64,000 bases of DNA from Zopfochytrium polystomum (taxonomy: Eukaryota > Chytridiomycota > Chytridiomycetes > Chytridiales > Chytridiaceae): positions 124,001 to 188,000 of the forward strand of contig JAIVFJ010000075.1 in the NCBI GenBank assembly GCA_025765615.1, written 5' to 3'. This document shows positions 2,952 through 63,275 of the stretch, piece by piece. Under the pieces are notes generated by a model. The model was given only the letters and a program-made list of their open reading frames with translations. It did no database searches and was not told where the DNA came from. The position numbers and the translations under genes were made by a program. Position 1 is the stretch's first letter, and each line of letters begins with the position of its first letter.

Positions 2952-3305
2952 TGTTATGAATCACCCTCTGGAAACCTCTGGAACCTTCTAGAACATTCCT
3001 TAATGGAACCTTCTGGAACCTTCTGGAACCTTCTAGAACATTCCTTCATGGAACCTTGTGGAACCTTCTGGAACCTTCTTTGCTTTCCTGACTTGTCTTG
3101 TTGTCATTGGTATCATTGGTATCATTGTATTACTAATTGCTCTTTCTGGAACTTTCTTTGAGTCTTGACAAGGAACACTCTCAAAAGGTATAAAAGGGGG
3201 ATGGGGGGACCTGTCCCATCCCTCAAGTGAATTATTGTTTCCAATACAATCATCACTCCTCTCAGTTCCTTGTCTGCCTTGTCCTGGCCTGCCCTGTTCC
3301 TGACA
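2952..3305 (+). mobile_element. solo LTR of the Ty3/gypsy family (long form)
   Basis: The 354-bp sequence starts TGTTATGAATC and ends GTTCCTGACA. It is flanked by a perfect 5-bp target-site duplication CCCTT (2947-2951 and 3306-3310). It contains the GGAACCTTCTGGAACCTTC repeat array, a TATAAAAG box and the AAGTGAATTAT motif of the family. No internal region remains, so it formed by recombination between two LTRs. This form carries about 45 bp more of the GAA/TTC array than the 308-bp form. Confidence 0.9.
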
Positions 3306-6155: not shown

Positions 6156-6464
6156 TGTTATGAATCACCCTTTGGAAACCTCTGGAACCTTCTAGAACAT
6201 TCCTTCATGGAACCTTGTGGAACCTTCTGGAACCTTCTTTGCTTTCCTGACTTGTCTTGTTGTCATTGGTATCATTGGTATCATTGTATTACTAATTGCT
6301 CTTTCTGGAACTTTCTTTGAGTCTTGACAAGGAAGACTCTCAAAAGGTATAAAAGGGGGATGGGGGGACCTGTCCCATCCCTCAAGTGAATTATTGTTTC
6401 CAATACAATCATCACTCCTCTCAGTTCCTTGTCTGCCTTGTCCTGTCCTGCCCTGTTCCTGACA
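6156..6464 (+). mobile_element. solo LTR of the Ty3/gypsy family (309 bp)
   Basis: It begins TGTTATGAATC and ends GTTCCTGACA, with a perfect 5-bp target-site duplication CATGG (6151-6155 and 6465-6469). The heat-shock-element-like array, TATAAAAG box and AAGTGAATTAT motif are present. It inserted into another dispersed repeat whose uninterrupted copy lies near 33.2 kb. From 6470 to 7312 I see no supported gene. Confidence 0.9.
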
Positions 6465-26077: not shown

Positions 26078-28409
26078 AGGTTGAGTGACTGGGCTCTTAT
26101 GCAGTGCCCCCTCCCGCGTGTTTTGATGAGAGCGTATGTTTCCGACAACCCACTCTTTTATTGACCTTATTTATTTTTTTTTAATTGACCGTGAGCGAAA
26201 GCAAACAATCTTTTGAGTGTGCGTCCGATTGTATGTGCCTTTATGCATGTATTTGACCCTTTTTTATTCTCGTTAAGTCGATTGAGCCCTTATCACTTTT
26301 GCTTTGGCTCTCTGCCATCAGCCCCCTCTCCCCTCCCGGCACCTTCCGAAATCTTCATCATTAATGCGTTGTCCCGCTGTTTGTTCTTTATTGTGCAACG
26401 ATCACCTGCCCCCTCTCCCTTTTATTTGATAAAACGAATTCTTACATCTGTGTCCGAGGTCGCGCTAACCATTTGGACCCCTTTGGAATGAAGAGCAAAT
26501 ATCAAGAGACTAATGAAACAAGTCAGTACAACTCCTTTCTCCTGCTGGTTGCTTTTTCACATCTTTAAAGGGGCGAAAATCCTCAATCGCTCCTTCTCCA
26601 GCACGGTATACTCGCCGCGCTTGGAGGCTTCTGCGACAAGTTTTTTTCGGCGTGAAAGGATGCAACGGGAGCCGGAACAACTGCATGGAACCTCCACGCT
26701 AAGGTGTGGGAGCGGGAATATGGCGGGGATGCGAGCATCGCTTCAAGCTCTGTGGGGGTCGGCTGTTCTTTGTTCGAGTCGCAGAAGGCCTCCGCCGTCC
26801 TTTCACGGGAGTGGCAACTGTCGGCCTCGCAGTCGATTTCGCTCAGAGAAGGCCTTTTTCACCCTACGACTGCCAGTTCAACGGCGGGGACTCGGGCCTT
26901 GGTTGCCATCGTATTTTCGAAATACTCGGTGCAGAGTTGATCTGGAGCTGAAATATTTGAATCCGGGAGGCCTCGCTGGGTTTCAAACTGGTGAACGTCT
27001 CGAGCACTGCGCTTGCTGCACTCCCACGGTTTGATCTTTGCTTCCTTTTTTCAGGTCTCAGGCCGGCTCTTACCCGAAAAAGGGGTGTTTCGTGAGTACT
27101 GTCGGTCAGCCCACGCTCGTCGTCGGATTCGTCAATACTCGCAATTCACAAAAAGTGCCCAAACTCCCGTCGTCATTCAATCACAATCACGTCTCTTAAC
27201 AGCGTGGTCCCAAGCATTCGACTTTCGGGAACGGTGACCGTGTGGAGGGCAGCGGCAAACACATTGAGGAGCCTCAAAGTTCATTTTTTTTACACTATGA
27301 CCGGGATGTATCCGACGCTACAGCATTCCCAGCGCAATCCTCTCAGTCCCAACGCATAATCACCGATAAGTCTCCACTTTTTCTCGACAACAGTCTGTCC
27401 ACCTGGAGCTCCTTAAACTGCGTCTAAGACCTCGGGAACCGCAGATTCTTTTCACGGTACCCACGGGCTTTCAATTTTTGAAGGCTGGAACTTATCTCAC
27501 GCTGTGTCAATCGGGTGGATACTAGTTTCGCGAACTCGAGTTCTTTGGCGAATGCTACTGGCCAAGAAATTGGGAACTCGGCAAGGACGGCATTCCATGG
27601 AGACAAGACCAAGGACTTTGGCGGGCCAAGCGCTCTGGACGTGTTCTGGAATCCTGCTCCCGGAACCCCAACATCGTCTTCCGCGATACCACTTCCGTTG
27701 CCGGAACTGCAACCTCGACTGGCATACCATCGCAAAAGCTCCCAGACGTTGTCTTCGACACCGGACCACACAAACACTTCCCGCTGACGATGTCAAGAAC
27801 GCCAAGAAGTTTCGCCGGAGTCTTCCAAGACCCGTCGACCAGACACTCGAGCTCTGTGCGACGAATTTCATCCAAGCAAAACAAGGTCGACTCGCGGCTC
27901 CGCACACAGGTCGTCGAGCGCGAAGTGTCGGTTCGTGGTAGCCGAGATTCGATCGGATTGACGCACTGCTCGCATGCGAATGGCAATGGAGAAAGAGGAC
28001 GGTTGGGGGTGGTGGAGTATGGGTCCGCACTTATCCACGCTCCAAAGCCTCTCACAAGTGGAAGAACGACCGGGCCCGACACAAAATGAAATTCACCAGA
28101 AGTCAAATGGGAAAAAGCTTAGGGTCGCCTTTTTTTTTCATTTCCCCCCTCGCGATGCTGGCATGAGGAGTCAGGTAGGAAGGGCCGAGAAGAAAGAAAA
28201 GAAAAGAGGCTGTGGTCGGGCTTGGAGGGCGGCGGGACAGTTGAGGAAGTAATGGAACAAGAAACATATCGGATGAAGAGGCAATAGGATTCTGCGGGGA
28301 AAAAAAAAAAAAAAGCAACTTTTTTTTTTTTTTTTTTTTTTCAGCACAACAAGCCATCCCAAGAGAAGCAGAATCCCTTCAAAGGTGAAGAGCGTCGAAA
28401 GAGACGAGA
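26078..28409. other. stretch without a recognised gene
   Basis: There are only fragmentary ORFs on both strands with no recognisable domain. At 28303-28341 an A run is followed by a T run. The T run (28320-28341) is the downstream poly(A)-like tract of the minus-strand gene at 28410. Confidence 0.4.
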
Positions 28410-29732
28410 TCAATACGTGTCGACGACCCACACGCGGACGTCGCCGTCGCACACACTGAACACGCGCGCCCCCGCGACGGCGAGCCCGGCGCACCTTCCC
28501 ACCTCCGTGTCGGTCGGCGCATACACGACCCGGGCCGTCGCGAGGGATTTCCACTCGACCTGCGTGATGGCCCCAGTCACCGCCTGAACGTACAAGTAGT
28601 CGCCGCTCAGCACGGCCCGCACCACGCGTCCGACGTCCACGTTCTTCCTCGACGACCAAGCGATCGCCGGGACGGGCACGTTCGGGTCGATGGGGAGCAG
28701 TGCCACCGCCGGAACGGCGACTAGTCCGCCGGCGGGGTCCGCGGCAGGGTAGACGACGGATCCGCTGGCGAAGAGGACGGCCCCCGCGGTGGAGGATGCG
28801 TCGGCGTCGGAGGGCAGCCGGGAGGCGTCGGCGGCCGCGAACGAGGTCGCGGCGGACCCAACGGTGCGCACGGTATTGTCGCCGCTGACGGCGTACAGCC
28901 GGGGTTGCGGGTTCGCGGCTTCGTCGCACACCAGCCGCAGGGTGCCGTTTAGCGCGTAGCCGCCCTGCTGAGGCGGGAAGTACAATTTCGTCGCCGCGAT
29001 CGGTATACCGCCGTCGGTCGCCCGGAGCACGGCGACGGCGCCGGTGCCGTTCACGGCGACGACGTGCCCGCCGCAGAAGGCCCACGCGCGGAGGTCGGGC
29101 GCGAGGTGGAAGGTCTCGACGGGCGCGGTCTGGTTGTTGTCGGCTGGGGCGGCGGGGACGCACGAGAGTGTGCCGCTGCCGGCGGCGACCAGGCAGAGGC
29201 GCTGCGGCTGGCCGGGCAGCGAGACCGGCAGCGGCTGCTGGCTGGAACCTGCGACGGTCGGGTCAACGCGCGGGAGGATGCTCGCGACGCCGTTGGGGGC
29301 GGCGGTCGATTTGGTCGTGCTGCTGCTGTCTTGGGCGGTGGCGGTGGCGCTGAGGGTGAAGAGGCGCGGGCGGCCGTCGGCGGTGACGACGGCTACGGCC
29401 AGGATCTGGCCGTCCAGGAGCACAGCGAGGCGCGAGGCGGGGTCGGCTGCGGTGGTGCCGTTTTCGCTGACGACGATGCCTTCGGCGGGGATCAGCAGCT
29501 GCGAGCCGCCAAACGGGGCTTGTTGAGATGCCTTCTGTTTGCCGACGACGAAGACGACCGCGAGGATGACGCTGGCAGCGGCAGCGACGAGCGCGAGGAG
29601 GGTGACGGCGGTGACGAGGATGCGCTTTCGGGTTCGGGCCGTGGCGGTCGCTGGGGCAGCAGCCGGGTCGACTTTAGCGTCGCCGTCGCTGGGCAGGGGC
29701 AGCTTTTCGTCCTTCTCGTCGATGTTGCTCAT
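28410..29732 (-). CDS. single-pass (type II) membrane protein, intronless, copy 1
   Basis: An uninterrupted 440-codon frame. The N-terminus is charged and cytosolic in character, then RKRI precedes a membrane helix (LVTAVTLLALVAAAASVILA, about residues 38-60). The rest is a Val/Ala/Gly-rich ectodomain of beta-strand character with possible N-glycosylation sites (NGT, NQT), ending VWVVDTY. A repeat-poor beta-propeller-like fold is possible, but no family was recognised. A near-identical inverted copy lies at 42252-43576. Similarity stops close to the ATG and shortly after the stop, and each copy is followed by a homopolymer A tract (here 68 bp beyond the stop). Lack of introns and the A tract suggest origin by retroposition. 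Confidence 0.75.
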   Translation of the reverse strand: MSNIDEKDEKLPLPSDGDAKVDPAAAPATATARTRKRILVTAVTLLALVAAAASVILAVVFVVGKQKASQQAPFGGSQLLIPAEGIVVSENGTTAADPASRLAVLLDGQILAVAVVTADGRPRLFTLSATATAQDSSSTTKSTAAPNGVASILPRVDPTVAGSSQQPLPVSLPGQPQRLCLVAAGSGTLSCVPAAPADNNQTAPVETFHLAPDLRAWAFCGGHVVAVNGTGAVAVLRATDGGIPIAATKLYFPPQQGGYALNGTLRLVCDEAANPQPRLYAVSGDNTVRTVGSAATSFAAADASRLPSDADASSTAGAVLFASGSVVYPAADPAGGLVAVPAVALLPIDPNVPVPAIAWSSRKNVDVGRVVRAVLSGDYLYVQAVTGAITQVEWKSLATARVVYAPTDTEVGRCAGLAVAGARVFSVCDGDVRVWVVDTY

Positions 29733-34749: not shown

Positions 34750-35037
34750 TGTCAGGAACAGGGCAGGCCAGGACAAGGCAGACAAGGAACTGAGAGGAGT
34801 GATGATTGTATTGGAAACAATAATTCACTTGAGGGATGGGACAGGTCCCCCATCCCCCTTTTATACCTTTTGAGAGTCTTCCTTGTCAAGACTCAAAGAA
34901 AGTTCCAGAAAGAGCAATTAGTAATACATTGATACCAATGATACCAATAACAACAAGACAAGTCAGGAAAGCAAAGAGGGTTTCATGAAGGAATGTTCTA
35001 GAAGGTTCCAGAGGTTTCCAGAGGGTGATTCATAACA
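34750..35037 (-). mobile_element. LTR (3' LTR of element A), short form
   Basis: A 288-bp LTR in minus orientation, TGTTATG (at 35037) to CCTGACA (at 34750), lies directly downstream of the polypurine tract and pol of element A. It shares a deletion of part of the GAA/TTC array and several base changes with the LTR at 39519-39806, and differs from the LTR at 36799. Confidence 0.85.
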
Positions 35038-36798
35038 TCATCTCCCCCTTTTAGGCCTCTTCTGCAACTTGGTGGGGTACCTGGTCTTGAACTTGAGCAG
35101 AAGGTCTTGGCAGTGAGTGAGGTTTGACTCAGGTTCCCAGGTGTTGTCAGCATCTGAGTAACCTTTCCACTTGACAAGGAACTTGAGTGTCCTTCCAAAC
35201 CACTTGGCATCCAAGATTTGTTCAACCTCAAATTCCTCTTCACCTTCTGCCTCAACTGGAGGAGGAGGAGGAACAACTCTGCCTGGAATGGAATTGGCCA
35301 CAAACTTCTCCAAAAGGCTGACATGGAAAACTGGGTGGATCTTCATGGATGCAGGGACATCCAGCTTGAAGGTGACTGGATTGATTTGCTCCAAGATCTT
35401 GAAAGGTCCCAACTTGAGGTTGTCTCGCTTGGGACTTGGTCTTTTGGTCTGCAAGTTCTTCCTCAGAAGCCAAACTTGCTGACCCACAGCAAGGTCATGG
35501 TCCATTCTGTGAGTGTTGGCAAAGCTTGAGGTATCTTCTTGGGCTGGCTTCAGGGTGGAGTCCAGGAAGGTGCTGATGATCTTGAGCTTATGCAAGTGTG
35601 AAGCCACAGCAGGAGCTTGGACATTGGATAGGGTCTCTTGTCCCAAAAGATCTCCTCTTGGATTGAAGCCATAGGTTGCAAAGAAAGGAGATAGCTGGGT
35701 GCTTGAGTGGAGAGAATTGTTGAGAGCAAATTCTGCAGGCAGAAGGAGGGTGGGCCAATCATCCTGTTGATAGCTGACGTAGCACCTCAAATATTGCTCC
35801 AGGGTCTGGTTTGTTCTTTCTGTTTGTCCATCAGTCTGAGGGTGATAAGCAGTTGACAGTTGAGACGTGATTCCAAGGGCTGCTGTGAGTGCTTTCCAAA
35901 ATTGGGATCTGAACTGCGGTCCTCTGTCACTGACGATTGACTGAGGCAGCCCATGGAGCCTGAATATGTGCTGCAAAAACAGGTCTGCTGTTCCTTGTGC
36001 ATCTATATTCTCAGTGCAGGGGATGAAATGGGCCAACTTTGTCCTTCTGCAGATGACAACAAGGATAGAGTCAAATCCATGGGATGGGGGCAGTTTCACA
36101 ATGAAGTCCATGGATATTGATGACCAAGGGCTGATGGCAATTGGGAGGGGCTCCAGAAGTCCATAGGGCTTGTGTCTGCTGGATTTGTTTCTTTGACAGG
36201 TTTCACAGCTGCTGACATAGTTCTTGATGTACTTCCTCATGCCTGGCCAGTGGAAGTCTCTGGAAACAAGCTCATATGTCTTGTGCTCTCCTGGGTGTCC
36301 AGCTGTTGCTGCATCATGCCTTGTCTTGAGTATCTCAAGTTTTTCCTCCTCTTGGCTGATTTGAATCTTGTGAGGCTTGGGGTCCTTGGAAATAGCATTG
36401 GCCCACACACTGTCAGGAAGCAATGAAAGGTGTGTCTTGGATGGTGGGGTGAAACCATCTCCCCCTTCAGGTGCAAGGTCTGTTCTTCTTGACAGGGCAT
36501 CAGCCACAGTGTTCAGGTGGCCAGGAGAATAGCACAGCTTAAAGTCATACTCAGAGAGCAGTTCAGCCCACCTGGCATGCCTCTGCTTGAGCAACCTCCT
36601 TGCCCTGAAGAAGGTGAGGTTCTTGTGATCAGAATAGACAGAGATGCCTTTAGAACCAGCCAAGTAGTGTCTCCAGAATTTGAATGCTTCCACAATTGCA
36701 AGCAACTCCTTGTCATGGACTGTGTAGTTACACTCAGCACTGTTCAGCTTCCTGGAGTAATATGCCACTGGATGCAGAGGAGCAGAGGGGTCCTGAGA
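35038..36798 (-). pseudogene. Ty3/gypsy chromovirus pol 3' half: RNase H end, integrase, chromodomain
   Basis: The minus frame starts mid-RNase H (HPVAYYSRKLNSAECNY, HDKELLAIVEAF). The integrase zinc-binding region follows (GHPGEHKTYEL, CETCQRNKS). The catalytic core shows all three acidic residues (MDFIVKLPPS, VSDRGPQF, HPQTDGQTER). A C-terminal chromodomain (FLVKWKGYSDADNTWEPE) targets integration to modified histone in this family. The frame is open to the stop at 35038, within the AAAAGGGGGAGATGA polypurine tract. Reverse transcriptase, protease and gag are missing because the element is cut at 36798, where a plus-strand LTR begins. Confidence 0.9.
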
Positions 36799-36827
36799 TG
36801 TTATGAATCACCCTCTGGAAACCTCTG

Positions 36828-36880
36828 GAACCTTCTAGAACATTCCTTCATGGAACCTTGTGGAACCTTCTGGAACCTTC
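36828..36880 (+). promoter_or_regulatory. heat-shock-element array in the LTR
   Basis: GAA at 36828, TTC at 36833, GAA at 36838 and TTC at 36843 are spaced by exactly 2 bp, followed in the same 5-bp register by GAA at 36853 and 36863, TTC at 36868, GAA at 36873 and TTC at 36878. This is the nGAAnnTTCn array bound by trimers of heat-shock factor. It lies about 110 bp upstream of the TATA box, an enhancer-like position. Confidence 0.75.
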
Positions 36881-36990
36881 TTTGCTTTCCTGACTTGTCT
36901 TGTTGTCATTGGTATCATTGGTATCATTGTATTACTAATTGCTCTTTCTGGAACTTTCTTGGAGTCTTGACAAGGAACACTCTCAAAAGG

Positions 36991-37036
36991 TATAAAAGGG
37001 GGATGGGGGACCTGTCCCATCCCTCAAGTGAATTAT
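36991..37036 (+). promoter_or_regulatory. LTR core promoter: TATA box and inferred start site
   Basis: TATAAAA at 36991 precedes AAGTGAATTAT (37026-37036) by 35 bp, the expected distance for transcription initiation. The start site is inferred from this spacing and from the exact complementarity of that 11-mer to 37109-37119. Confidence 0.65.
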
Positions 37037-37108
37037 TGTTTCCAATACAATCATCACTCCTCTCAGTTCCTTGTCTGCCTTGTCCTGTCCTGCCCTGTTC
37101 CTGACATC

Positions 37109-37119
37109 ATAATTCACTT
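37109..37119 (+). other. self-primer binding site of element B
   Basis: ATAATTCACTT, two bases inside the 5' LTR, is the exact reverse complement of AAGTGAATTAT at the inferred mRNA 5' end. No tRNA-complementary TGG-type site is present. Tf1/sushi-type fungal elements prime reverse transcription with the first 11 nt of their own mRNA, and this layout matches that mechanism. Confidence 0.75.
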
Positions 37120-37146
37120 CACCCTCTCCTACTACTCTCTGCCATC

Positions 37147-38006
37147 ATGTCTGACCCAAACAACACCTTCCCTGATGCAACTGCCTTCCAAGCCTTGATG
37201 GACCAATTACAAGCCCTTTCAAGACAGACACACCAACTTCAAGAACAAGTCCTTCACCAGCAGCACCAGCTTCAACAACAACTTCACCAACAAGAACATC
37301 AAGCTCTTCCCCTGCCTCAAGCCAACCAAGCAAGAGAGCCCAAGGTTCCCAGCCCTGACAAGTTCACTGGGCTGGCCAAAGACCTTAGGAACTTTATGGC
37401 CACTGTGGAGAATGTCATCCTTCTCCAACCTTCAAGATTTCCCAATCTCTCCCAAGCACACCCACCACCCTGCAAGAGCTCTGGGAGGGGCTGGAAGCTA
37501 CCTTTGGTGACCCCTACGCATCTTGGACAGCAAGATCCAAGCTCAAGCATATCAAGCAAGGAAAGCAATCTTGTGTGGCCTACACCAACCAATTCAAGCA
37601 ACTAGCCAGAGACTCTGGATACAATGATGCAGCTCTGATGGAGCTGTACCATGATGGTCTCCATGAGTCTATCCAAGACATGCTCTCCCAGTCTCTGCAC
37701 ATCCCTGAGACCTTGGAAGAGTACATTCTCCTTGCCATCAAGATTGACAACAGACTCTACTCCAAGAGGCTGAAGCAAAGACAAGTAGGAACTACATCAA
37801 GACCTACCCCAGTCCCTCAAGCTCTTACAGTTCCTGAACCCATGCAAGTGGATGCAGTTGAGACACTTCCTAAGGGTCCTCTGAGCCAAGAGGAGAAAAC
37901 AAGGAGGGCCCAGCAGGGACTGTGTTTCTACTGTGACTCCAAGGAGCATGCTGTCAAGGACTGCCCAAGGAAGAAGCACCCAAACTCCCAGGTCCAGGCT
38001 CACTGA
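37147..38006 (+). pseudogene. gag of element B, frameshifted, with zinc knuckle
   Basis: The first frame (MSDPNNTFPDATAFQ) has a Gln-rich coiled-coil-like N-terminus and the start of a capsid-like region (FTGLAKDLRNFMATVENV). Near 37440-37460 the frame is lost: the capsid continuation (LQELWEGLEATFGDPYASW, then AYTNQFKQLARDSGYNDAAL) is in another frame. An internal deletion is likely, because the capsid is short. The nucleocapsid zinc knuckle CFYCDSKEHAVKDC (C-x2-C-x4-H-x4-C) follows, and the frame ends at 38006. The Gag protein cannot be made intact, so any mobilisation needs Gag in trans. Confidence 0.85.
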
Positions 38007-38101
38007 GGGGCAATTCCCTGGACCCTCCTCCAAGCTGCCCCTGTTTCATCACCACCACCAGCACCACAAACACCTCAGATTCCAAGCCCCACCAACTCAC
38101 C

Positions 38102-39505
38102 ATGGATGTCAAGATTCAACTCTCACCCAAGTCAACCATCACAACCAAGGCCCTTATAGACTCTGGATCATCCTGCAACTTCATTGATGCCACCCTTGCC
38201 AAGTCTTGTGCCATTCCTACGATCAAGAAATCCACACCCCTCAAGGTCCACTTTGCCAATCATGCTCTGTTCAAGGAAATCAGCCATGAAACCAAGCTAA
38301 ACCTCCACATCCAAGACTTTCCACCATCCATGGTCAATCTGGAAGTATTGGATCTTGGCTCACCCACATTCTCTGTCATCCTGGGATTACCATGGCTGCA
38401 AGCCCAGAACCCTGACATTGATTGGGTCACTGGTCAAGTCCAACCTCCACCAATTGGAACAGTCACCCAAAACTCAAGTCAAGCCTCCAAGTCTCATGCT
38501 CTCAAGTCCCTGATTCAAGGCTCTCAGCCTAGTATCCAAGGTCAACCACAAATGACAGCTCCAGTATCAGCCTGCAGCTCACAGATCCCAGCCAAGATTC
38601 AAGTTTCACAGTTCACAGTTCATAGTCAAGATTCCAGCACAGCTCATAGAGCTCACAGTCATGGCCAAGTCTGTAGTTCACAGAACCCACAGTCAAAGAT
38701 TCAAGTACCACAGTTCACAGTCCAAATTCAAGATTCAAGCTCCACAGCTCACAGTCTTTGCCAAGAACAGAACCCTCAGTCAAAGATTCAAGAATCACAG
38801 TTCCCAGTCAACAATTCAAGCCCCACTGCTGATGAGCACAGAAGGACAGACCTTGCACCTGAAGGGGGAGATGGTTTCACCCCACCATCCAAGACACACC
38901 TTTCACTGCTTCCTGACAGTGTGTGGGCCCATGCTATTTCCAAGGACCCCAAGCCTCACAAGATTCAAATCAGCCAAGAAGAGGAAAAACTTGAGATACT
39001 CAAGACAAGGCATGATGCAGCAACAGCTGGACACCCAGGAGAGCACAAGACATATGAGCTTGTTTCCAGAGACTTTTACTGGCCAGGCATGAGGAAGAAC
39101 TTGCAGTCCAAAAGACCAAGTCCCAAGCGAGACAACCTCAAGTTGAGACCTTTCAAGATCTTGGAGCAAATCAATCCAGTCACCTTCAAGCTGGATGTCC
39201 CTGCATCCATGAAGATCCACCCAGTTTTCCATGTCAGCCTTTTGGAGAAGTTTGTGGCCAATTCCATTCCAGGCAGAGTTGTTCCTCCTCCTCCTCCAGT
39301 TGAGGCAGAAGGTGAAGAGGAATTTGAGGTTGAACAAATCTTGGATGCCAAGTGGTTTGGAAGGACACTCAAGTTCCTTGTCAAGTGGAAAGGTTACTCA
39401 GATGCTGACAACACCTGGGAACCTGAGTCAAACCTCACTCACTGCCAAGACCTTCTGCTCAAGTTCAAGACCAGGTACCCCCACCAAGTTGCAGAAGAGG
39501 CCTAA
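38102..39505 (+). pseudogene. internally deleted pol of element B: protease-(deleted)-integrase Zn region-chromodomain
   Basis: One open frame of 467 codons. Residues 1-115 are the aspartic protease, with the active-site motif LIDSGSSCNFID and ILGLPWLQAQNPD. A Ser/Gln/His repeat tract follows (QVSQFTVHSQDSS and variants). At about residue 246 it joins RRTDLAPEGGDGF, which in element A lies downstream of RNase H, so reverse transcriptase and RNase H are deleted. The zinc-binding HHCC part starts (GHPGEHKTYELVSR), then a second deletion joins WPGMRK to NLQSKRPSPKR, removing the integrase core. The chromodomain is complete. TGAGGAAG is shared by both sides of the second deletion in element A. 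A polypurine tract AAAAGGGGGAGATGA precedes the 3' LTR. Confidence 0.9.
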
Positions 39506-39518
39506 AAGGGGGAGATGA

Positions 39519-39806
39519 TGTTATGAATCACCCTCTGGAAACCTCTGGAACCTTCTAGAACATTCCTTCATGAAACCCTCTTTGCTTTCCTGACTTGTCT
39601 TGTTGTTATTGGTATCATTGGTATCAATGTATTACTAATTGCTCTTTCTGGAACTTTCTTTGAGTCTTGACAAGGAAGACTCTCAAAAGGTATAAAAGGG
39701 GGATGGGGGACCTGTCCCATCCCTCAAGTGAATTATTGTTTCCAATACAATCATCACTCCTCTCAGTTCCTTGTCTGCCTTGTCCTGTCCTGCCCTGTTC
39801 CTGACA
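39519..39806 (+). mobile_element. 3' LTR of element B (288 bp, short form)
   Basis: TGTTATG to CCTGACA. It lacks about 20 bp of the GAA/TTC array found in the 5' LTR at 36799 and shares diagnostic changes (TTGTTATTGG, ATCAATGTATT) with the LTR at 34750-35037. Confidence 0.9.
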
Positions 39807-42251: not shown

Positions 42252-43576
42252 ATGAGCAAGATCGACGACGACGAGAAGAAGGCCGAAAAGGATGACTACG
42301 CCGCCGCCGCTAAAGTCGACCCAGCTGCTGCCGCTGCGACCGCCACGGCCCGAACCCGAAAGCGCATCCTCTTCACCGCCGTCACCCTCCTCGCGCTCGT
42401 CGCCGCCGCCGCCAGTGTCATCCTCGCGGTCGTCTTCGTCGTCGGCAAACAGAAGGCATCTCAACAAGCCCCGTTTGGCGGCTCGCACTACTGGTCCCCG
42501 CCGAAAGCATCGTCGTCAGCGAAAACGTCACCACCGCAGCCGACCCCGCCTCGCGCCTCGCTGTGCTCCTGGACGGCCAGATCCTGGCCGTAGCCGTCGT
42601 CACCGCCAACGGCCGCCCGCGCCTCTTCACCCTCAGCGCCACCGCCACCGCCCAAGACAGCAGCAGCACGACCAAATCGACCGCCGCCCCCAACGGCGTC
42701 GCGAGCATCCTCCCGCGCGTTGACCCGACCGTCGCAGGTTCCAGCCAGCAGCCGCTGCCGGTCTCGCTGCCCGGCCAGCCGCAGCGCCTCTGCCTGGTCG
42801 CCGCCGGCAGCGGCACACTCTCGTGCGTCCCCGCCGCCCCAGCCGACAACAACCAGACCGCGCCCGTCGAGACCTTCCACCTCGCGCCAGACCTCCGCGC
42901 GTGGGCCTTCTGCGGCGGGCACGTCGTCGCCGTGAACGGCACCGGCGCCGTCGCCGTGCTCCGGGCGACCGATGGCGGTATACCGATCGCGGCGACGATA
43001 TTGTACTTCCCGCCTCAGCAGGGCGGCTACGCGCTAAACGGCACCCTGCGGCTGGTGTGCGACGAGGCCGCGAACCCGCAACCCCGGCTGTACGCCGTCA
43101 GCGGCGACAACACCGTGCGCACCGTTGGGTCCACCGCGACCTCGTTCGCGGCCGCCGACGCCTCCCGGCTGCCCTCCGACGCAGACGCATCCTCCACCGC
43201 GGGGGCCGTCCTCTTCGCCAGCGGATCCGTCGTCTACCCTGCCGCGGACCCCGCCGGCGGACTAGTCGCCGTTCCGGCGGTGGCGCTGCGCCCCGTCGAC
43301 CCAAACGTGCCCGTCCCGGCGATCGCTTGGTCGTCGAGGAAGAACGTGGACGTCGGGCGCGTGGTGCGGGCCGTGCTGAGCGGCGACTACTTGTACGTTC
43401 AGGCGGTGACTGGGACCATCACGCAGGTCGAGTGGAAATCCCTCGCGACGGCCCGGGTCGTGTATGCGCCGACCGACACGGAGGTGGGACGGTGCGCCGG
43501 GCTCGCCGTCGCGGGGGCGCGCGTGTTCAGTGTGTGCGACGGCGACGTCCGCGTGTGGGTCGTCGACACACACTGA
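42252..43576 (+). pseudogene. membrane-protein gene copy 2, one-base frameshift
   Basis: This inverted copy of the gene at 28410-29732 is nearly identical over the coding region: same membrane helix (FTAVTLLALVAAAASVILAV) and same ectodomain, ending VWVVDTH. Close to 42489, GGCTCGCA-CTACTGG lacks one base relative to copy 1 (GGCTCGCAGCTGCTG), so the first frame ends near 42593 while the remaining sequence stays open from 42563 to 43576. A sequencing error would have the same effect. The flanks differ from copy 1 almost immediately upstream of the ATG. A 33-bp A tract (43635-43667) lies 58 bp after the stop, as in copy 1. Confidence 0.85.
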
Positions 43577-43631
43577 TGTGCCGTTTTCCCTTGGTAGTTC
43601 GCCCTTGGAAGATAATCTGATGCTCCGTGTT

Positions 43632-62922: not shown

Positions 62923-63275
62923 TGTCAGGAACATGGCAGGACAGGACATGGCAGACAAGGAACTGAGAGGAGTGATGATTGTATTGGAAACAATAATTCA
63001 CTTGAGGGATGGGACAGGTCCCCCATCCCCCTTTTATACCTTTTGAGAGTGTTCCTTGTCAAGACTCCAAGAAAGTTCCAGAAAGAGCAATTAGTAATAC
63101 AATGATACCAATGATACCAATGACAACAAGACAAGTCAGGAAAGCAAAGAAGGTTCCAGAAGGTTCCACAAGGTTCCATGAAGGAATGTTCTAGAAGGTT
63201 CCAGAAGGTTCCAGAAGGTTCCATGAAGGAATGTTCTAGAATGTTCCAGAGGTTTCCAGAGGGTGATTCATAACA
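62923..63275 (-). mobile_element. LTR (3' LTR of element C), long form
   Basis: A 353-bp LTR in minus orientation, TGTTATG at 63275 to CCTGACA at 62923, has the extended GAA/TTC array also seen in the solo LTR at 2952. It follows the chromodomain end of element C. Confidence 0.88.

Follow-up and report, generated by a model that had tools for sequence, protein, structure and literature searches.

Does a dense array of GAA and TTC triplets in the long terminal repeats (LTRs) of a chytrid retrotransposon place the element under the control of its host's heat-shock factor (HSF)? Such nGAAnnTTCn-type units, or heat shock elements (HSEs), are the docking sites by which cells switch genes on under heat stress. 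The array in question lies in a 64,000-nucleotide stretch of DNA (the window) from Zopfochytrium polystomum (Chytridiomycota), an aquatic chytrid and early-diverging fungus. The assembly containing the window amounts to 80.16 Mb, and a chytrid survey that uses the older name Cladochytrium polystomum describes an 81.2-Mb genome, the largest of its phylum in that survey, with 12.3% transposable elements (PMC9926174). One cytosolic HSP70 encoded by the assembly matches a Z. polystomum protein from end to end at 100% identity. Based on its anatomy, we consider it likely that the array is a bona fide HSE cluster in the U3 promoter of a Tf1-like, predicted self-priming chromovirus and that HSF drives this promoter on stress. 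The element would probably be transcribed when its host experiences heat stress.

The GAA/TTC array and the predicted transcript start

The initial annotation described GAA and TTC triplets alternating at 36828, 36833, 36838, and 36843, and we located exact triplets at these positions (GAA, TTC, GAA, and TTC, respectively). GAA at 36853 follows in the same 5-bp register, which is continued by GAA at 36863, TTC at 36868, GAA at 36873, and TTC at 36878. The claim that the blocks extend to 36880 held for the common register and for the location upstream of the TATAAAA box but not for the alternation, which is interrupted between 36846 and 36862 by a CTTCA spacer and by TTG where TTC is expected. 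Because of this break, the LTR at 36799 carries two runs of four units rather than one continuous run (Table 1). A three-unit run lies nearer the promoter, in a register that differs from that of the main array. The segment first delimited (36799 to 37036) comprises U3 of the 308-bp LTR together with the point where R is predicted to begin; its end is not the end of the LTR, which reaches 37106.

Table 1. Retroelement features in the window, with HSE run positions also given relative to the predicted transcript start
Coordinates	Strand	Feature	Basis or remark
2952..3305	+	Solo LTR, 354-bp form, 5-bp duplication CCCTT; HSE runs of 4, 8, 4, and 3, the 8-unit run at 3006-3043	
6156..6464	+	Solo LTR, 309-bp form, 5-bp duplication CATGG; HSE runs of 4, 4, and 3	
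34750..35037	-	3' LTR, 288-bp form, opposite-strand copy	Alignment, HSE scan
35038..36768	-	RNase H, integrase, Tf2-1-like SH3, and chromodomain, in order; opposite-strand copy	Pfam, relatives
36799..37106	+	5' LTR (308-bp form, TGTTATG...CTGACA) of internally deleted copy	Alignment of the six window LTRs
36828..36845	+	Distal HSE run, four exact units GAACCTTCTAGAACATTC	-198 to -181
36863..36880	+	Second HSE run, four exact units GAACCTTCTGGAACCTTC, 5-bp register as in the distal run	-163 to -146
36946..36958	+	Proximal HSE run, three exact units TTCTGGAACTTTC, separate register	-80 to -68
36991..36997	+	TATAAAA box	Surrounding 20-mer: 1706 exact genome copies
37026..37036	+	Predicted RNA 5' end and self-primer, 11 nt (AAGTGAATTAT)	Exact reverse complement of the PBS
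37109..37119	+	Primer-binding site (PBS) ATAATTCACTT, 2 nt past the LTR	LTR-PBS junction: 636 exact copies
37147..38006	+	Gag-like frames, two overlapping ORFs	CCHC knuckle spotted by eye
38102..39505	+	Aspartic protease fused to integrase zinc-finger part, SH3, and chromodomain	Pfam
39506..39518	+	Polypurine tract (PPT) AAGGGGGAGATGA preceding the 3' LTR	PPT-LTR junction: 628 exact copies
39519..39806	+	3' LTR, 288-bp form; run of 4 at 39548, run of 3 at 39646	Alignment, HSE scan
62923..63275	-	3' LTR, 353-bp form; HSE runs of 4, 8, 4, and 3, the 8-unit run at 63184-63221	

In all six LTRs of the window, the array consists of exact GAA/TTC triplets in the 5-bp register and is followed downstream by a TATA box, and the LTRs come in different length forms (288 bp in two copies, and 308, 309, 353, and 354 bp). 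Both observations agree with the initial reading of a canonical HSE array that is polymorphic in length. Dinucleotide shuffles were run for two of the six copies. The longest run in 36799-36988 (4 units) was reached in 3 of 5000 shuffles and its total of 11 units in 0 of 5000, and neither the run of 8 nor the 19-unit total of 2952-3186 was reached in any of 5000. With the six LTRs removed, the window contains no HSE run of 3.

The TATA box lies downstream of the array, as first described, and the array is also upstream of a transcript start predicted independently, from self-priming. Complementarity between AAGTGAATTAT and the PBS places this start at about 37026, 35 bp past TATAAAA, which lends independent support to the promoter location of the array. 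The 11-nt complement is kept at 12 of 13 distinct 5' LTR-PBS junctions; the exception is L052, and a further hit, L043, is no junction of this type. In the folded RNA, the stem between AAGTGAATTAT and the PBS is closed in both the MFE and centroid structures (z, -2.06; 7 of 200 shuffles fold as well or better). We predict that the element is self-priming and that the 5' end of its mRNA falls at this position. Tf1 and Tj1 are described as using the 5' end of their RNA to prime reverse transcription (PMC4600332).

The element and its copies

The assignment to Ty3/gypsy was borne out by Pfam domains, which identify a chromovirus LTR element. On the minus strand, 35038-36768 encodes RNase H, integrase, SH3_Tf2-1, and chromodomain in the pol order of a Ty3/gypsy chromovirus; reverse transcriptase falls outside this fragment, but the closest relative, P0001 (68% identity), does have it. 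This chromodomain-bearing Ty3/gypsy pol is not the Ty1/copia pol of the ONSEN/COPIA78 family, and by these features the element is a Tf1-like chromovirus. Since the protease directly abuts the integrase zinc finger, the copy at 36799-39806 is internally deleted, and Pfam detected neither reverse transcriptase nor RNase H nor an integrase core in its 38102..39505 frame. The LTRs have TG...CA ends, and 7 solo LTRs and 5 LTR pairs are flanked by matching 5-bp duplications; the flanks do not match at five LTRs without an internal junction (L003, L040, L043, and two in L049) or at the non-paired copies. Within the window, the retroelement cluster is flanked by an inverted duplicate (28409-29688 and 42299-43577; 95-98% identity, ~12.6 kb apart) that contains a 440-aa ORF (28410-29732, minus strand) without a Pfam match.

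Genome-wide, the core-promoter 20-mer that includes the TATA box has 1706 exact copies, and we counted 636 exact LTR-PBS and 628 exact PPT-LTR junctions; all three counts are lower bounds because exact matches were required. Among the listed genome matches to 36799-37036 (best 40 of 1023 candidates scored), 40 of 44 were 100% identical across all 238 bases. We were able to pair 37 of the 41 5' junctions on contigs C1-C9 with a 3' counterpart. The internal spans of these pairs cluster near 4600 bp, with shorter spans recurring near 2477 bp and, in clusters on contig C6, near 2865 and 1327 bp. Spans of 2475-2477 bp occurred in 5 of the 37 paired elements, and this class may be a non-autonomous deletion derivative carried along by the HSE-bearing LTRs.

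Five LTR pairs with matching 5-bp duplications differed by 0, 0, 0, 1, and 0 substitutions across 308-354 bp, a series in which the pair L004/L005 is biased because its search ranked copies by identity, highest at the top. In three pairs whose duplications do not match there were 1, 1, and 0 substitutions, and the window pair 36799/39519, also without matching duplications, showed 6 substitutions and a 20-bp gap. Based on the near-identity of the duplication-matched pairs, the HSE-bearing LTR family is recently active.

Some copies show rearranged surroundings. Contig C1 (L031-L034, ~658,400-672,600) has a plus copy flanked by AGCTA/GGTGC and a minus copy flanked, in its own orientation, by GGTGC/AGCTA. 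Such swapped 5-bp flanks would be expected if recombination between inverted copies had turned round the ~4 kb separating them. The array of the minus copy is longer in its 5' LTR (398-bp form) than in its 3' LTR. On contig C6 (~360,000-372,700 and 235,300-240,500), core-promoter sites recur every 3171 bp, five in succession, and in the second stretch every 1725 bp on both strands; these periodic sites would represent either tandem and palindromic LTR-unit multimers or assembly effects.

Array length, host heat-shock genes, and competing readings

The basic dyad of the array is the 10-bp TGGAACCTTC. Three such dyads, TAGAACATTC, and CTTCA make up a 45-bp higher-order unit that contributes eight exact HSE units, and the array grows mainly via this unit, giving common LTR forms of 7, 11, 19, or 27 HSE units. 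Of fifty LTR rows compared, one lacked a reachable LTR start; the others reduce to 43 distinct LTRs, 39 with both ends. Relative to the common form, array length in the 43 was the same in 24, longer by 45 bp in 11 and by 90 bp in 2, and shorter by 20 bp in 2, with shifts of -10, +10, -45, and +19 bp in one LTR each. Copies differ in array length, as originally described, both in the window and among these 43 LTRs. In the 34 3' LTRs of contigs C1-C9 that could be measured, the TATA 20-mer lies 187 bp from the LTR start in 19, 232 in 8, 277 in 3, and 233, 167, 177, and 242 in one each; form frequencies derive from these contigs, where 9 of 43 3' LTR junctions had no exact core-promoter 20-mer nearby. 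The junction pattern of the extra unit occurs exactly 1130 times in the genome, an upper bound on extra units because it also matches a few LTRs that lack the additional 45 bp (L036, L049, and L051 among them).

Loss of the 5-bp register among genome copies, which would have counted against the initial reading, was not seen: array length is shifted by 0 or a multiple of 5 in 42 of the 43 distinct LTRs (L042, at +19, is the exception). This is a weak test of register conservation, since slippage among 5-, 10-, and 45-bp repeats yields multiples of 5 anyway; slippage alone would also produce the observed length steps, which are thus no proof of selection. Every one of the 43 LTRs has at least 2 HSE runs of 3 or more units each, and the shortest form found, a 263-bp solo LTR (L041), retains runs of 4 and 3. 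Across 120 units taken from 17 distinct arrays, triplets had 0.046 mismatches per site and spacers 0.144; since these units are related, the lower variation of triplets is a weak hint.

The host encodes candidate binding proteins. We found 14 HSF-domain matches at 11 places in the genome, with an in-frame stop at three of them, and the two reading frames tested (L009 and L012) were both identified as HSF_DNA-bind by Pfam. In comparison with solved structures, L009 matched HSF2, HSF1, HSF4, and other HSF chains and aligned through the segment FVRQLNMYGFHK; its recognition segment is preserved in the HSF2 alignments shown.

Four-unit HSE scoring of upstream DNA covered 16 (L053-L068) of 30 HSP70-family loci, including five of cytosolic type (100, 100, 95, 92, and 84% identity to L054). 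Four of these five match 11 of 12 triplet letters (e.g., GAACGGTCTGGAACATTC), compared with 0 of 97 overlapping 1.5-kb background windows; they correspond to three of four genes, as the DNA of L054 and that of L055, which lie on two contigs, is 99.8% identical. The fifth, L062 (84% identical to L054), scored 9, which is not above background, and 0 of the 11 other HSP70-family loci examined exceeded background for a four-unit HSE. For HSP90 (two genes), 0 of 3 loci rose above background in the 1.5 kb examined, which starts inside the gene. When five units were scored, three of the four positive HSP70 loci reached 13 of 15 (background, 0 of 97), and L061 reached 12 of 15, within background (3 of 97 windows reached 12).

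Six-unit HSE matches numbered 2188 genome-wide versus 0 for the reversed pattern, overlapping matches included (one 8-unit run gives two). Of 25 clusters listed from contigs C1-C5, 21 were within 300 bp of the TATA 20-mer and 3 more were near family junctions, indicating that the strongest listed HSEs of the genome lie almost all in this element. C3:472624, the sole listed cluster outside those 24, possibly belongs to a host gene or a diverged LTR. The six-unit pattern also occurred in 15 stretches of IMG/VR viral contigs.

In the mechanism we propose, heat or proteotoxic stress would cause host HSF to trimerise, and trimers could then occupy adjacent sites in the 4- and 8-unit runs ~145-200 bp upstream of the start (further out in long forms) and on the 3-unit run ~70-80 bp upstream. 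Bound trimers would activate the TATA promoter, RNA would start at AAGTGAATTAT, and its first 11 nt would pair with the PBS and prime reverse transcription. Unequal copying between 10-bp dyads and 45-bp units would change array length while nearly always keeping the 5-bp phase. HSF binding, heat induction, self-priming, and any effect of array length are features that we infer from this anatomy, which indicates an HSF-responsive promoter about as clearly as sequence allows.

It is possible but unlikely that the array is a slippage by-product of a 10-bp palindromic unit, which may bind HSF in vitro while other U3 sequences set transcription. The array is a real tandem repeat of 10- and 45-bp units, its length steps are mostly of those sizes, and slippage by itself would preserve the 5-bp phase. 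However, the repeated unit is exactly an HSE, used too by most cytosolic HSP70 loci of the host, and the separate 3-unit HSE stands outside the repeat, in another register and closer to the TATA box. The retention of runs of 4 and 3 in the shortest LTR and, weakly, the greater variability of spacer letters argue in the same direction. Another doubt concerns the bound protein, which could be a different HSF-domain protein (Skn7- or Sfl1-like): HSF-domain paralogues bind related sites, and the genome has HSF-domain matches at 11 places. Were such a protein the main occupant, the array would mediate repression, or tuning to oxidative stress or development, instead of heat induction; the contiguous GAA/TTC layout, however, is that of the host's cytosolic HSP70 promoters, and we judge this reading quite unlikely.

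The sheer number of sites, estimated at ~25,000 HSE units (1706 LTRs times a mean of ~14-15 units in 34 3' LTRs), together with the 7 of 43 distinct LTRs that are solo with matching 5-bp duplications, would suit arrays whose main effect is to soak up HSF like a sponge or to enhance host genes on heat from dispersed sites, a consequence of copy number and not a strategy of the element. Against this, the array sits directly upstream of the element's own TATA box and start, which favours a role for the element itself, and we find the sponge or enhancer reading very improbable. Also distinctly improbable, if slightly less so, is that the HSE behaves as a self-amplifying satellite: with nearly all six-unit HSEs in LTRs (24 of 25 listed clusters), heat shock would both launch the element and titrate or rewire host HSF, and array length would be subject to the opposing effects of element output and HSF depletion. 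HSF-driven transcription of the element on stress is the most probable reading.

Comparison with known systems

To our knowledge, no HSE array is known in the LTRs of Tf1/Tf2 or Tj1. These related Schizosaccharomyces elements self-prime through a PBS that pairs with their mRNA 5' end (PMC4600332), an arrangement that is predicted for the chytrid element. The literature searched, in which subscription papers were mostly outside coverage, made no mention of an HSE array in a chytrid LTR at the level of titles and abstract openings. Heat-shock-associated changes are described for MAGGY and Pyret of Magnaporthe (PMC3978060), and the term "heat shock element" does not occur in the main text of that paper.

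Heat-responsive terminal repeats and HSE-bearing transposons are described from several other lineages. The terminal repeats of DIRS-1, a repeated element of Dictyostelium, contain a heat-shock promoter (cited in PMC2685390), but these repeats are inverted, and the element uses a tyrosine recombinase (PMC3266345) and is not an LTR chromovirus. In Caenorhabditis, Helitrons hold many genomic HSEs as overlapping tandem motifs bound by HSF-1 (PMC6927752); unlike these DNA transposons, the chytrid element has its HSEs in its own promoter. Among fungal LTR elements, Cryptococcus TCN3 and TCN12 are mobilised at 37 C and have two and one putative HSEs, respectively (PMC12810828); the sequence evidence is stronger in the chytrid element.

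ONSEN/COPIA78 and TERESTRA, Ty1/copia elements of the Brassicaceae, have an nGAAn HSE cluster in the LTR; in ONSEN, this four-nGAAn element is bound by HSFA2 on heat (PMC5059998). Those plant elements belong to the copia superfamily and are described with clusters of four to six nGAAn, compared with exact runs totalling 7-27 units in the common chytrid forms, and their description includes no 45-bp higher-order HSE repeat (PMC5059998). The natural series of LTRs with 7, 11, 19, and 27 HSE units makes it directly testable whether HSE number sets retroelement output. The chytrid element is a strong sequence candidate for an HSF-responsive retroelement in an early-diverging fungus, and its array appears to be a more extreme form of the feature known from ONSEN and suspected also in Cryptococcus TCN3 and TCN12.
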